Origin: Flavobacteriales bacterium
GTDB taxonomy: Bacteria > Bacteroidota > Bacteroidia > Flavobacteriales_C > GCA-002722245
Direction of reading: 5' to 3'
Length of the DNA stretch: 64,000 bases
Assembly (NCBI GenBank): GCA_023251095.1
Contig: JAHEZL010000006.1
Location: forward strand, 1 to 64,000
Positions 40,779 to 46,024 of the stretch are shown piece by piece (position 1 is the first letter of the stretch; the number at the start of each line of letters is the position of its first letter). The notes below the pieces were generated by a model, which was not told the DNA's origin, searched no databases, and saw only the letters and a list, made by a program, of their open reading frames with translations. A program made the position numbers and the translations under genes.

Positions 40779-40966
40779 AACGGGCAGGTAACTTCGTGCG
40801 GGGGCCCGAGCCAAGAGGTTTGATATTAAGAGGAGAAGCGTAGCTTCGGTCTTCTCTTCGTGTGAAAGGATTTTCGTGTGAAGGCAGCAATCTCTTCGCT
40901 CTTGAATTTTTTGGATACTTTTTGTTTCAAGACAAAAAGTATCGATTTGCTTCTTTTAAAAGAAGA
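40779..40966 (+). repeat. Structured intergenic element, copy 1
   Basis: One of four copies in the window. The 5' box TAACTTCGTGCG...GCCCGAGC leads into a first stem arm at 40808-40817, whose partner is at 40892-40901 (one mismatch). Then come CTTGAATTTTTTG, a perfect 11-base hairpin (40914-40924 with 40933-40943), and the 16-base palindrome CTTCTTTTAAAAGAAG at 40950-40965. Confidence 0.85.
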
Positions 40967-40969
40967 CAT

Positions 40970-41003
40970 AAAAAAAACCTCTCCTTTTCAGAAGAGGTTT
41001 TCA
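40970..41003 (-). terminator. Terminator of the MFS transporter gene
   Basis: An AACCTCT / AGAGGTT stem with an 11-base centre CCTTTTCAG-type loop, preceded on the plus strand by a run of A (T on the minus strand). It lies just beyond the MFS stop. Confidence 0.75.
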
Positions 41004-41021
41004 ATTCTATAAGAAGATTTC

Positions 41022-42491
41022 TTAATGTCCTCCTCCTAATTTTTTATCAAAGCTAATTCCCTGACTTTTCAATATTCCACTTACTCTCCATGCATAAAAA
41101 GCTAAGTAAGCAAAACAAGCAACACCAACGATATAACTCATTTGAATTGAAGTTTCGTCGGCAACAACACCTTGCAACCAGCTAACGATACCACCACCCA
41201 TGATCATCATGATTAAGAAGTTACTTCCCTGTGCAGTTTTGTTTCCTAAGCCGCTAACAGCCAAGGTGAAAATACAAGGCCACAATGTGCTGCAAAACAA
41301 ACCAACGCTGGTGAATGCATAAACACTTGTATCTCCTGAGGTAAACATTCCCGTGAAAAGAGCTGCAATCCCTACAATTGAAAAGATCAATAACATACGT
41401 GCAGGATTTCCTTTACTTGCGATATCCGCAGCGATAAGCGCTAAAATCACAAAAGCATACACATAAAATGGAGCCAGGTCGTGACCGGCAATAGCGTTAA
41501 CTCCTAAGAATACAGCGAAAGCGATATAAGGAGCAAAGATTTTCATTACTTTTTCAACACCTGCAGAAAGGTTAAAAGCCTCAACAGCACCAGTCCAGCG
41601 ACCAATCATCAAACTCGCCCAGTACAAAGAAACGTAAGGAGCGATGTCTTTTAATTTATATCCCAAATCTTTTTCCATGTAAGCCGGAAGGTTACTTGCA
41701 GTAGATACTTCAACACCCACGTAAACAAAGATCGCTATCATCCCCATTACCAATTGAGGGTATTGTAAAGCTGATGTTTTGGCAACATTCACCGCATCCA
41801 GAATTTGAGAATTTGATCCCACTTCGTCTTTTACAGCTTCTTCTTCAATAGCCGGTTTATCAGGCAAAGAAGAGAATTTTAAAATCACGGCAACAATTAA
41901 AAAGGCCAAGCCTAAAATTAAGTATGGAATTTTAACGCTTTCAATGCTCGCTTCAGTGTTTTCAGCAGAAGGAGAACCGAATATCGCAAAACTCACAATC
42001 AGTGGCCCGATGGTTGTTCCGAAATTGTTGATACCACCCGCGAGGGTTAAACGTTGTGAGGCGGTATGACGTGAACCCAAAGCAATCGCCAAAGGATTGG
42101 CAACCGTTTGTTGCAGTGAAAATCCTAATCCCACAATGAATAAACCCGAGAGCATCAAAGGGAAAGAACCGCTATTGGCAGCAGGATAAAACAATAGAGT
42201 ACCCAAAGCAGAAATGCTGAGACCCAAAGCCAATCCGTTTTTATATCCTATTTTATTGGTGATATCTTCTTTAATTAATGCGGAAACTGCCATGTATATA
42301 AGAGCACCAACAGTATACGCTACATAAAAAGCAACCGACACCAGCTGACTTTCACCCTGAGATAAATCAAAAGCTTTTTTGAAAACCGGAATTAAAATAT
42401 CGTTACTTGCAGCAACAAATCCCCAGAAGAAGAATACGGATACTAATGGAAGGAACTGTCCCCATTTGGTTTGTGAATTTTCAGAACTCAT
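41022..42491 (-). CDS. Sugar MFS transporter, FucP-like
   Basis: A 489-residue major facilitator with about 12 membrane segments. The N-terminal part FFFWGFVAASNDILIPVFKKAF and GLGFSLQQTVANPLAIALG, followed by LAGGINNFGTTIGPLIV, match the FucP/GluP group of H+-sugar symporters (fucose, glucose, galactose). A roughly 35-residue acidic cytosolic loop in the middle is usual in Bacteroidota members and lengthens the protein. It stands alone, preceded by about 300 bases that include its promoter. The sugar is not readable. Confidence 0.9.
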   Translation of the reverse strand: MSSENSQTKWGQFLPLVSVFFFWGFVAASNDILIPVFKKAFDLSQGESQLVSVAFYVAYTVGALIYMAVSALIKEDITNKIGYKNGLALGLSISALGTLLFYPAANSGSFPLMLSGLFIVGLGFSLQQTVANPLAIALGSRHTASQRLTLAGGINNFGTTIGPLIVSFAIFGSPSAENTEASIESVKIPYLILGLAFLIVAVILKFSSLPDKPAIEEEAVKDEVGSNSQILDAVNVAKTSALQYPQLVMGMIAIFVYVGVEVSTASNLPAYMEKDLGYKLKDIAPYVSLYWASLMIGRWTGAVEAFNLSAGVEKVMKIFAPYIAFAVFLGVNAIAGHDLAPFYVYAFVILALIAADIASKGNPARMLLIFSIVGIAALFTGMFTSGDTSVYAFTSVGLFCSTLWPCIFTLAVSGLGNKTAQGSNFLIMMIMGGGIVSWLQGVVADETSIQMSYIVGVACFAYLAFYAWRVSGILKSQGISFDKKLGGGH

Positions 42492-42795: not shown

Positions 42796-43014
42796 ATGAA
42801 TATTCAGGCAAGAAAATTAAACATCATTCAATACCTCTCCCAAACCACGAATGCGTCGGTAGTTGACTTAATTGAACGTATTATCAAAAAAGAAGATGCC
42901 GATTTCTGGAATGAGCTATCTGCTTCTGAAAAAAAGGAAATCCTTGCAGGAATTGATGAATTGGATAAAGGAGAAAAAGTTGATTACCTTAAATTCATGT
43001 CTAAGCATCGGTAA
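42796..43014 (+). CDS. Antitoxin of toxin-antitoxin module 1
   Basis: A 72-residue small protein preceding a ParE/RelE-like toxin with a one-base overlap (TAATG), the usual type II toxin-antitoxin layout. It starts MNIQARKLNIIQYL and is mostly helical and acidic toward the end. The N terminus matches that of module 2 (QARKL), so the two belong to one family. I chose the ATG at 42796, where the alignment with module 2 begins; an in-frame start at 42775 is inside the promoter box. Such antitoxins bind the toxin and usually repress the operon. Confidence 0.82.
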   Translation: MNIQARKLNIIQYLSQTTNASVVDLIERIIKKEDADFWNELSASEKKEILAGIDELDKGEKVDYLKFMSKHR

Positions 43015-43319
43015 TGATCAGGAAAATTTCACTTTCCAAAAGAGCTTCTATAAAGCTCGATAAAATTCTCCATTACCTCCAAAAAGAATGGTCAATCAAA
43101 GTAAAAAATGAATTCATTTCTAAGCTTGACCACTCCATTAACATTATCGCTGAAAATCCCGATGCTTTTCCTGAATCCAATATTCAAAAAGGAATTCACA
43201 AATGTGTTGTCACAAAACAAACAACCCTTTATTATCGCATAAAATCTTCCGAAATTCAAATCATCTTTATTTTTGAAACCCGTCAAAGTCCAAAGAAAAT
43301 AAAGAAAGGATTAAAATAA
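43014..43319 (+). CDS. ParE/RelE-family toxin of module 1
   Basis: A 101-residue protein of the RelE/ParE superfamily. The pattern LSKRASIKLDKILHYLQKEW (helix pair), INIIAENPDAFPES, HKCVVTKQTTLYYRI and the C-terminal FIFETRQSP fit the fold, with the last beta-strand and a basic tail KKIKKGLK. RelE members cut mRNA in the ribosome; ParE members poison gyrase. Which applies here cannot be told, though the sequence looks more ParE-like. The start overlaps the antitoxin stop. Confidence 0.85.
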   Translation: MIRKISLSKRASIKLDKILHYLQKEWSIKVKNEFISKLDHSINIIAENPDAFPESNIQKGIHKCVVTKQTTLYYRIKSSEIQIIFIFETRQSPKKIKKGLK

Positions 43320-43370: not shown

Positions 43371-43545
43371 CAGAATGGGTCACTAACTTCGTGCGAAGGC
43401 CCGAGCTAAGAGGCGGGCGTGTGTTAGGTTTTTCGTGTGGCGTCAGCATCCCTGCCTGCCGGCAGGCAGGTCTTAGCTCTTGAATTTTTTGGATACTTTT
43501 TGTTTCAAGACAAAAAGTATCGATTTGCTTCTTTTAAAAGAAGAC
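43371..43545 (+). repeat. Structured intergenic element, copy 2
   Basis: Shares the 5' sequence ATGGGT.ACTAACTTCGTGCG with copies 3 and 4. The closing stem pairs 43403-43411 (GAGCTAAGA) with 43471-43479 (TCTTAGCTC). The second hairpin is 43492-43502 with 43511-43521, and CTTCTTTTAAAAGAAG follows at 43528-43543. It carries an inserted 20-base palindrome inside the closing stem. Confidence 0.87.
43451..43470. repeat. 20-base perfect palindrome nested in copy 2
   Basis: CCTGCCTGCCGGCAGGCAGG is a perfect, GC-rich palindrome inside an AT-rich element. The other three copies lack it, so it is a later insertion of a separate small repeat. Confidence 0.8.
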
Positions 43546-43650
43546 CCAAACTCCCTTTTGCAAAAACCGCAAGTATTTCCCCCTCCTTTAGTTTAAATCA
43601 ATTGAATTAAGCCTGCCTTTCGGTTTTCCTTTGTCGCATAAATTATTCAC

Positions 43651-44292
43651 ATGAAAAAACTATTTTATTTCGCGCTAAGCATTGTATTCCTGAGCTCTTG
43701 CAGCTCTAATTATCTCTCTAAAAATCATTATGATTTAAGATTGGTGAAACGGGAGTTAAAAGAAGAAGTAATAAAAACATCTCATTCCACCTCTTCTAAA
43801 GAAACAAACACCTTATCTGTCCGACAATTTATCAATGAAAATTTCAGTGATACTCTTCGTCAAAACGATAGCAATATTATAGATACAGTCGAAACAAAAA
43901 TAGATACTCAAAACCTACTCCAACCTGAAGAAACTCCTTTAGGAAAGGAAAGCAAGACAACAATTCAAGCAGTAGATGAAAAGGAAATCAACAATGAAGA
44001 TTTATCTTCTTTCTATCTCATACTTGGAAGCGTTCTGTTAACAATTGGAATCCTCCTAATACAATTTATACCTATACTTGCTTTTCTGGCAGCTCTATTG
44101 GCTTTGATTTGTGCGGTATTAGCACCCACGTTAACTAAAAGCAAAACAAAAAAGAATTTATCCCGATTATTAAAGATTTTGTGTGTTATTATTTTAGTAA
44201 TTACTGCTTTCTGGATTGTGGTCAATTTCTTAGATGCTATTACTAAAGGAATAGATTTTGGAATTGGAATGGGAAACAGTTATTGGCTGTAA
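43651..44292 (+). CDS. Hypothetical membrane lipoprotein
   Basis: A 213-residue protein that I do not recognise. It begins with a lipoprotein-type signal (FALSIVFLSSCSSN, cysteine at about 17). A polar, Ser/Thr/Asn/Glu-rich stretch of about 90 residues comes next. Two or three long hydrophobic segments near the C terminus follow (FYLILGSVLLTIGILLI, IPILAFLAALLALICAVL, ILCVIILVITAFWIVV). A lipidated N terminus on a protein with several C-terminal helices is unusual but is found in Bacteroidota. It is alone on the plus strand and shares its terminator with the duplicated fragment that follows. Confidence 0.7.
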   Translation: MKKLFYFALSIVFLSSCSSNYLSKNHYDLRLVKRELKEEVIKTSHSTSSKETNTLSVRQFINENFSDTLRQNDSNIIDTVETKIDTQNLLQPEETPLGKESKTTIQAVDEKEINNEDLSSFYLILGSVLLTIGILLIQFIPILAFLAALLALICAVLAPTLTKSKTKKNLSRLLKILCVIILVITAFWIVVNFLDAITKGIDFGIGMGNSYWL

Positions 44293-44297
44293 AACAA

Positions 44298-44330
44298 AAA
44301 AACCTCTCCTTTTCAGGAGAGGTTTTTTCT
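44298..44330. terminator. Bidirectional terminator, first copy
   Basis: An AACCTCTCC / GGAGAGGTT stem around TTTTCA, with A and T runs outside. It can end the hypothetical lipoprotein gene on the plus strand and the 3' fragment on the minus strand. A second copy is at 45088-45122, with one A-T pair replaced by C-G. Confidence 0.85.
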
Positions 44331-44346
44331 TTATATCAGTGTGAAA

Positions 44347-44456
44347 TTATTTCACCATCAATTTTTCTGTGTGTGATCCAGAAGCACCTGCGATGTTTAC
44401 AAAGTACATACCTTCAGAGAAGTTAGATACATTGAATTTCAGGTTTTGAGTGCCGG
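44347..44456 (-). pseudogene. 3'-end fragment of a T9SS protein gene
   Basis: The last 36 codons of the T9SS gene at 45140-46024 are repeated here, with the same encoded residues (from AGTQNLKFNV to TEKLMVK and stop). The homology continues through the terminator. It starts abruptly at about 44456, next to toxin-antitoxin module 2. It has no start codon or signal peptide and cannot be functional by itself. Confidence 0.85.
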
Positions 44457-44479
44457 CTAGCAAATTAATCGAATTTTCG

Positions 44480-44487
44480 TATATTAG
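44480..44487 (+). promoter_or_regulatory. -7 box of toxin-antitoxin module 2
   Basis: TATATTAG, close to TAnnTTTG, in the context GAATTTTCGTATATT shared with module 1. It ends only four bases before the ATG, so the mRNA would be leaderless or nearly so. Confidence 0.45.
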
Positions 44488-44491
44488 TACA

Positions 44492-44716
44492 ATGGATTTA
44501 CAAGCAAGAAAATTAAGTATAATTGACTGGGTACTACATCTTCACGATGAGGATTCATTAAAACAATTGGAAAAAATTTGCAGTAAGTATTCTTACATCC
44601 ACCCACCATCTATTTCCAATGAAGAAATGTATTCAAGACATTTGAAGTCTGTGAAAAACATTGAAAAAGGAAAGTTGACCAGCCATAGTGCCGCAAAAAA
44701 ACGCTTTGGTGTATAA
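44492..44716 (+). CDS. Antitoxin of toxin-antitoxin module 2
   Basis: A 74-residue small protein. Its start MDLQARKLSIIDWVLHL parallels the antitoxin of module 1 (MNIQARKLNIIQYL), and the rest is helical with a basic end (LTSHSAAKKRFGV). It overlaps the toxin by one base, as in module 1. The ATG at 44492 is chosen from that similarity; an in-frame start further upstream lies within the duplicated gene fragment. Antitoxin function is inferred from layout and paralogy. Confidence 0.78.
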   Translation: MDLQARKLSIIDWVLHLHDEDSLKQLEKICSKYSYIHPPSISNEEMYSRHLKSVKNIEKGKLTSHSAAKKRFGV

Positions 44717-45027
44717 TGGGTAAATTCACAATAGATTGGACCAACTTTGCTCTTAATTCCTTAGAAAACATACATTTTTTTATTTCCAAAAAAGCACAAT
44801 CAGTAGTACCCGCCAATAAATTGGTGAAGAAAATATTCAAGAGTGTTGATATATTAAAAACAAATCCTACTTCATTCCAAGAAGAACCATTTCTAAAAGG
44901 AAAAGGATTGTCGGCAAGGTACTTAGTGGTTGGTATGTATAAAGTTATTTATGTCATTAAAAACAAAAACATCATTATTACCGACGTATTTAACACTTCT
45001 CAACATCCTTCTGAAATGAATAAATAG
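44716..45027 (+). CDS. ParE/RelE-family toxin of module 2
   Basis: A 103-residue protein of the RelE/ParE superfamily: IDWTNFALNSLENIHFFISKKA (two helices), FKSVDILKTNPTSFQEE, SARYLVVGMYKVIYVIK and the last strand IIITDVFNTSQHP. It is only distantly like the module 1 toxin while the antitoxin N termini are close. It overlaps the antitoxin stop by one base and sits between two copies of a T9SS gene's 3' end, which suggests insertion or recombination. Confidence 0.83.
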   Translation: MGKFTIDWTNFALNSLENIHFFISKKAQSVVPANKLVKKIFKSVDILKTNPTSFQEEPFLKGKGLSARYLVVGMYKVIYVIKNKNIIITDVFNTSQHPSEMNK

Positions 45028-45087
45028 GCCCTCCGATAAGTATAAAGAGACTCATCGTTACTGTTCTAAACACGAAATATCCTAAAA

Positions 45088-45122
45088 ACAAAAAACCCTC
45101 TCCTTTTCAGGAGAGGGTTTTT
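45088..45122. terminator. Bidirectional terminator, second copy
   Basis: ACCCTCTCC pairs with GGAGAGGGT around TTTTCA, flanked by A and T runs. It ends the T9SS gene at 45140 on the minus strand and the toxin-antitoxin module 2 on the plus strand. It is the partner of the copy at 44298-44330. Confidence 0.87.
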
Positions 45123-45139
45123 CTTTATATCAGTGTGAA

Positions 45140-46024
45140 TTATTTCACCATCAATTTTTCTGTGTGTGATCCAGAAGCACCTGCGATGTTTACAAAGTAC
45201 ATACCTTCAGAGAAGTTAGATACATTGAATTTCAGGTTTTGAGTACCAGCAGCAACGTTTTGAGAAAGAACAACTCTTCCAGTGATGTCAGTTAAAGAAA
45301 CAGTTACGTTTTCTTTAGCAGCGAAATTAACGTTTACAACGTCGTTAGCCGGAGAAGGGAAAATGTTTAAAGCTCCAGAAATTACTTGAGAATCAAAAGT
45401 TGACAACCATCCACCTGTTTGGCTTCCAATTTTAATGTAGTCAATTTTAAAAGTACCTGAAATCAAAGCAACTCCTCCTTTGTCAACATCATCCCAATTA
45501 GTTCTAAATCCAACCACTACAAATCCAATCTTTGTAATATCTACCATTTTATTATCCCAAGTATGATAATCAGTAATTGTTTTTGTGAAAGTATTATCAC
45601 CTACAGTTAATGCTTGTAGTATAGGATTCATGTCTGTATAACCAACTCCATCACCAACAGCCACTAACATTTGAGGAACGGCAACGGAAGAATTTACTTT
45701 AACTTCAACAGTGATACCTCCAGTAAGATTTATTGTGTCCAAATTACAATCCGGATCAACCAATGACATAGCAAAATTTTCAGCGTTTGCCGTTTGTTTT
45801 GAGCCATCTTTATCAATTACAATAGAACCAGCAGTAACATCAGTCAAAGTAAGAGAAGGCACACTATAAACTGGAATTCTAGTAGGGCAATTGTCGGCTG
45901 CTGCACCTGCAAATTCAAATTTATAACCAGTTTTAGTAACATTTGCCACATTGTGATTATCTTGGGCAAAAGTGGAAGTAGCAATAGCTGAAATAGCTAA
46001 TGTTGAAAGTAAAATTCTTTTCAT
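45140..46024 (-). CDS. Secreted protein with T9SS C-terminal sorting domain
   Basis: A 294-residue exported protein. The signal peptide is LLSTLAISAIATSTFAQ. The middle (about 25-215) is a beta-rich domain resembling a carbohydrate-binding or jelly-roll fold (GGITVEVKVNSSVAVPQML, VVGFRTNWDDVDKGG), of unknown ligand. The C-terminal 80 residues are a type A sorting domain (LNIFPSPANDVVNVNFAAKE ... SEGMYFVNIAGASG ... EKLMVK). Its last 36 codons and terminator are repeated 0.8 kb downstream. It is monocistronic. Confidence 0.88.
   Translation of the reverse strand: MKRILLSTLAISAIATSTFAQDNHNVANVTKTGYKFEFAGAAADNCPTRIPVYSVPSLTLTDVTAGSIVIDKDGSKQTANAENFAMSLVDPDCNLDTINLTGGITVEVKVNSSVAVPQMLVAVGDGVGYTDMNPILQALTVGDNTFTKTITDYHTWDNKMVDITKIGFVVVGFRTNWDDVDKGGVALISGTFKIDYIKIGSQTGGWLSTFDSQVISGALNIFPSPANDVVNVNFAAKENVTVSLTDITGRVVLSQNVAAGTQNLKFNVSNFSEGMYFVNIAGASGSHTEKLMVK

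Follow-up and report, generated by a model that had tools for sequence, protein, structure and literature searches.

A unit of about 0.6 kb carrying a toxin-antitoxin (TA) pair was most probably inserted into the convergent 3' region of a lipoprotein-like gene and a T9SS-secreted protein gene, with duplication of about 170 bp of the target and joining of the ends without a dedicated recombinase. The unit and its flanking repeats (Table 1) are located in the window, which is the whole 64,000-nucleotide stretch of Flavobacteriales DNA analysed here. As a reading of the window, the insertion and target-duplication step is well supported. Insertion of a TA unit extending from promoter to stop codon at a gene end is seen directly at two other loci, those of an enoyl-CoA hydratase gene (L144) and of asnS, and is strongly indicated in the window. 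The analysis turned up no recombinase, no fixed site and no terminal motif, and the route of DNA cutting and joining is therefore inferred to be general repair.

Table 1. Positions of the TA unit, the duplicated target and the neighbouring genes in the window
Feature	Position	Strand	Remarks
Lipoprotein-like gene	43651..44292	+	Stop codon overlaps start of outer copy; own genome only, apart from a 26% match in G004
Outer copy (U) of duplicated target	44291..44463		Hairpin terminator and T9SS 3' end, no longer part of a gene; derived changes relative to G003/G004
Terminator hairpin, outer copy	44297..44328		Now behind lipoprotein gene; fold -19.1 kcal/mol, z -4.6
Inserted unit (promoter, antitoxin, toxin, 57-nt tail)	44464..45084	+	Between repeat copies; homology with L023/L066 at 44461-45027 only
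Likely -7 promoter element TATATTAG	44480..44487	+	Read from sequence; compare TAnnTTTG
Antitoxin, 74 aa	44492..44716	+	ORF; MDLQARKL... family; relatives 77-82% in L021-L023
ParE/RelE-superfamily toxin, 103 aa	44716..45027	+	PF05016 (ParE_toxin) 32.7 bits, cut-off 23
Unit tail, 57 nt of unique DNA	45028..45084	+	From toxin stop to inner copy; not common to related modules
Inner copy (D) of duplicated target	45085..45255		Within intact T9SS gene and its terminator
Terminator hairpin, inner copy	45091..45122		Between convergent toxin and T9SS genes; fold -21.5 kcal/mol, z -5.5
T9SS-secreted protein gene, intact, 294 aa	45140..46024	-	Type A C-terminal sorting domain; PF18962 61.1 bits, TIGR04183 51.1 bits

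The two copies of the direct repeat (173 and 171 nt) show 96.5-97% identity (E about 1e-77) and differ by four substitutions and two 1-nt indels. The repeat contains 116 coding nt (38 codons including the stop codon) of the T9SS gene and the hairpin terminator. A preliminary description of this DNA had reported that the end of the T9SS gene and its terminator are repeated beyond the TA pair, and the 97% repeat bears this out, although the true repeat is slightly longer than was given. Two further points of that description also hold: the encoded residues are identical between the copies, only synonymous differences being found in the stretch before the repeat end that encodes the T9SS C-terminus, and the homology stops just before the antitoxin promoter, with 28 nt, TATATTAG included, between the repeat and the antitoxin ATG. 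The outer end of the repeat reaches into the lipoprotein stop codon upstream. When a 1-kb query that included the inner copy was searched against the window's whole genome, two copies and nothing else were recovered, so the repeat is not a dispersed one.

The lipoprotein and T9SS genes are convergent with adjoining 3' regions. The outer hairpin occupies the position of the lipoprotein terminator because the outer copy starts inside the lipoprotein stop codon, and after the duplication each of the three transcription units has its own terminator hairpin. The stem pair 44302/44323 is A-T in the outer copy and C-G in the inner copy, which is a compensated change. Since the change is compensated, selection may still act on the outer hairpin as the terminator of the lipoprotein gene, or this hairpin may have been corrected from its own other arm. 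In a separate comparison, the T9SS gene and its counterpart in G003 (L055:5578-6594), a genome of the same genus, were found to have the 5' signal region and the C-terminal domain in common (about 90%) and an unrelated middle, as though conserved ends had received a different cargo. T9SS genes can thus exchange their middles, the G003 gene matching that of the window only at its ends.

The segment 44492-45027 is an intact predicted type II TA operon, in which the antitoxin gene comes first and its stop codon overlaps the toxin ATG at TAATG (44714-44718). The antitoxin matches no model in Pfam or NCBIfam, and its relatives (77-82% identical) sit upstream of the same kind of toxin. Comparison with solved structures gave no sequence match at E <= 0.01 for the toxin and a chance-level match only for the antitoxin. 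The two genes are the only open reading frames of the unit, with ParE_toxin as the sole Pfam match, and no integrase or transposase was found among the open reading frames of the window. No relatives of the toxin were found on plasmid, phage or viral records, which speaks against carriage on known plasmids, phages and viral contigs.

TAnnTTTG is the pattern of the Bacteroidota -7 promoter element and is present in many related modules; TATATTAG is a likely promoter element of this kind. A similar sequence, TATATTTG, is found in a second TA pair of the window (TA1, 42796-43319), which also has a ParE-type toxin and whose upstream block has TTTCGTATATT in common with the pair between the repeats (TA2). 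No flanking repeat was detected around TA1. Another locus of the same genome (L069) contains two TA-like pairs with a common 59-bp promoter block.

Related genomes had been named in the preliminary description as the place to look for an allele with one gene end and no module. Single gene ends without the module are present in G003 and G004. In G003, the same transporter and T9SS genes occur together with one gene end and terminator, an unrelated small gene between them and no toxin, and in G004 the gene end is likewise single and no TA pair accompanies it. The exact lipoprotein/T9SS junction is absent from all relatives, and the lipoprotein gene is without a good relative in the family; the empty site of the window is therefore one-sided. 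When both copies were aligned with G003 and G004, all of the polarisable differences fell in the outer, non-coding copy, the derived changes including the replacement of C-G by A-T at the stem pair and two one-base insertions. Two substitutions near the repeat end are not polarisable with these genomes.

In L023 and its near twin L066, related TA units occur at unrelated loci, and their match to the window is confined to 44461-45027. It begins at the inner edge of the outer repeat and ends with the final base of the toxin stop codon. The neighbours of these units are, on our own reading of the open reading frames, presumably a receptor gene and a porphobilinogen synthase gene. Because the match has these limits, the unit predicted from the repeats is the unit common to the loci, to which the window adds the 57-nt tail. 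Owing to this tail, the right boundary is less tight in the window than in most other cases.

Complete empty sites were identified elsewhere. In G348 (L144), a TA unit lies inside a 126-bp duplication (94%) of the start of a gene that we take, from its translated start MAHQNLLIADDNGTRTITINRPDQLNALN, to be the 5' end of an enoyl-CoA hydratase gene. This gene is present without a matching toxin in 27 of the 30 loci listed for the genus, and in L188 and L189 both flanks and a single repeat copy align continuously across the junction. Two other loci, L192 and L202, contain a toxin with the same right junction and no detectable upstream copy, as would be expected if one old insertion had lost its useless copy. 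L144, L192 and L202 belong to three species of one genus and have the same neighbouring genes and right junction with diverged TA sequences, which suggests one old insertion with a decayed outer copy or a hotspot of insertion. In two Flavobacterium genomes (L024 and L025), the duplication at asnS is 26-32 bp long and the last 24-28 coding bases are repeated behind the toxin. None of 30 loci in the family has the toxin at this place, and rpoN directly follows asnS in most of them. Duplicated gene 3' ends were also found at L119, L094, L288, L327 and L328, and duplicated terminators at L084, L151 and L330. At L185 (2886-3873, minus strand), the repeat takes in the last 34 bp of the toxin gene, and the toxin 3' end is also present upstream of the module. 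Simple target duplication does not account for this repeat; its 34 bp of toxin sequence require a tandem duplication or a nested event, and the locus may be a remnant of a tandem duplication or of an earlier insertion.

To determine the frequency of the footprint, a profile of these toxins was run against 395 genomes of the class, and 119 usable antitoxin-toxin modules were located. For each module, 700 nt upstream were aligned with 700 nt downstream, and a repeat score of at least 44 was counted. A flanking direct repeat was present in 25 of the 119 ParE-type modules (21%), compared with 1 of 595 swapped flank pairs and 3 of 172 pseudo-modules in the same loci. VapC/PIN modules, which have an unrelated toxin family, gave 18/68 (26%), whereas acetyltransferase genes of similar size in the same class gave 0/66 and non-TA open reading frames adjoining TA modules gave 12/198. 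The combined value for type II TA modules, 43/187 (23%), differs from 0/66 (Fisher p 7e-7) and from 12/198 (p 2e-6); it describes best-scoring matches, not a random sample, some of which may share one insertion by descent. The figure of 23% is probably a lower bound, since L192 and L202 fit an old insertion with the upstream copy lost.

The positions of the repeats follow the gene boundaries. Both copies lie close to such boundaries in 24 of the 187 TA modules, 0 of the 66 acetyltransferase genes and 2 of the 198 neighbouring open reading frames. In 25 of 43 cases, the start of the downstream copy falls within an interval from 34 bp before to 20 bp after the final base of the toxin gene, and the end of the upstream copy is most often found 28-60 bp ahead of the antitoxin, immediately outside the promoter. 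The duplications elsewhere range from 26 to about 170 bp and more, and inspection of the list of unit ends by eye revealed no common recognition motif. About 13 of the surveyed repeats fold strongly. Some of these (L101, L104, L114, L289) could be dispersed palindromes, terminators or attC-like sites instead of target duplications; further genomic copies were checked for the window repeat alone. When all of the strongly folding repeats are removed, that of the window included, about 30/187 remain. At L104 and L101, the TA modules are flanked by long palindromic repeats with paired ends (TAAC...GTTA at L104), which might represent attC-like sites of integrons or else large dispersed palindromes.

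The preliminary description had left the choice between insertion at a gene end and replacement, by the TA module, of most of one of two tandem T9SS genes, with its 3' end left in place. Replacement would draw on a large stock of genes, since T9SS genes with similar C-terminal domains give 33 matches in the window's genome, and it is in keeping with the G003 gene, which shares with the window gene only the signal region and C-terminal domain. It is nevertheless disfavoured and highly improbable, because G003 and G004 each have a single gene end, the outer copy begins at the stop codon of the lipoprotein gene, and the same footprint occurs at the single-copy asnS and enoyl-CoA hydratase genes, for which empty sites exist and a replaced tandem copy is implausible. 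Insertion at the gene end agrees with the single ends in relatives, the changes in the outer copy, the same unit at other loci and the footprints at asnS and enoyl-CoA hydratase.

Two other routes to the arrangement were considered. Homologous recombination with a fragment or circle from a relative, carrying the TA pair and one gene end, would yield a TA pair between two repeats. The slight differences between the copies, including synonymous changes near one end, are compatible with such an exchange, direct repeats would ease excision and reintegration, and L185 has repeat-plus-toxin-end DNA twice. This route is unlikely, however: the family yielded no relative with this arrangement, and a process that spreads an existing insertion and creates none leaves the first insertion and the clustering of boundaries at the toxin stop unexplained. 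Site-specific recombination, either of an integron cassette or of an integrative element at a gene-end attachment site with the enzyme supplied in trans, would account for the many downstream copies that start near the toxin stop, like attC in cassettes, for the long palindromic repeat and TAAC...GTTA ends at L104, and for the same-looking junctions in L144, L192 and L202. Against it, there is no integrase in the unit or window, the targets are diverse, with many ordinary gene ends among them, the lengths range from 26 to about 170 bp and more, and the attC core (RYYYAAC...GTTRRRY) was found on neither strand of the window repeat and in no other surveyed repeat. The integron cassette reading was rejected on this negative search, although L104 and L101 are palindromic, and site-specific recombination as a whole is very improbable.

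In the preferred reading, insertion with target duplication, a TA unit consisting of promoter, antitoxin, toxin and short tail would have entered the convergent 3' region, and about 170 bp of the target would have been copied, leaving the T9SS gene whole. Most likely, a TA fragment was captured at a staggered break or by template switching, and fill-in copied the target on both sides. Selection would keep those insertions by which the neighbouring gene or terminator is rebuilt. Precise loss should be possible by homologous recombination between the repeats. Cells without the pair are expected to be penalised by the toxin, an effect that would favour retention of the pair. More generally, though still tentatively, type II TA pairs of Bacteroidia may be minimal mobile units (promoter to toxin stop) that move recurrently without an enzyme of their own and duplicate tens to hundreds of target bases, selection keeping the insertions that rebuild a gene or terminator.

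Insertion of restriction-modification (RM) systems with long target duplication was reportedly described by Nobusato et al. in 2000 and by Furuta et al. in 2010. RM systems, as outlined in two reviews (PMC3874152, PMC3031569), are kin to TA pairs and can insert with a long, variable target duplication (order of 100 bp) without a transposase of their own. The relevant part of PMC3874152 assigns this mode to RM systems and does not report it for TA pairs, and PMC2654758 cites the work on RM insertion when comparing the apparent mobility of RM systems and TA pairs. A non-exhaustive search of the open-access literature revealed no description of target duplication, empty sites or direct repeats for TA pairs.

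The window resembles these RM insertions in having an addiction-type unit without transposase between long, variable target duplications, and differs in that the cargo is a type II TA pair, the host belongs to Bacteroidia and the right boundary usually coincides with the toxin stop codon. It thus works like an insertion with long target duplication and is not a member of that class in the narrow sense, because the cargo is a TA pair and not an RM system. TA insertion as a whole behaves in the same way, since there is no integrase, no fixed site and every length of duplication. Among type II TA systems, the pair fits the ParE/RelE superfamily in its two-gene operon with the antitoxin first, overlapping open reading frames and a toxin domain above the curated cut-off, whereas its antitoxin is matched by no family model. 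Integron TA cassettes share with the window a small promoter-plus-TA unit with a repeat close behind it and another upstream, but the repeat in the window contains no attC core sites, no integron integrase was seen, and this repeat is the end of a neighbouring gene. The likeness to integrative elements drawn in the preliminary description applies loosely, in that a gene end was the site of insertion and was restored; it does not extend to an integrase, a fixed attachment site or a constant duplication length, and the unit is only about 0.6 kb with a duplication far longer than an attachment core.

These observations bear on the spread of chromosomal TA pairs that are not carried by a plasmid, phage or transposon, for which a footprint is visible here and the ends of the unit can be defined. 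The footprint recurs in about a quarter of the sampled modules, which represent two toxin families unrelated to each other, compared with about 0-6% of controls, and groups TA pairs with RM systems among the addiction units whose insertion involves long target duplication. It hints at how addiction genes move without a visible transposase, and target duplication explains how TA pairs can land at essential genes without destroying them. Flanking repeats combined with empty sites provide a simple genomic assay for dating and mapping TA insertions.

Two intergenic stretches (40862-41056 and 43437-43610) have overlapping content with near-identical short open reading frames (ALEFFGYFLFQDKKYRFASFKRR), and the second adjoins the palindrome GCCTGCCGGCAGGC. 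Together they look like a dispersed intergenic repeat.
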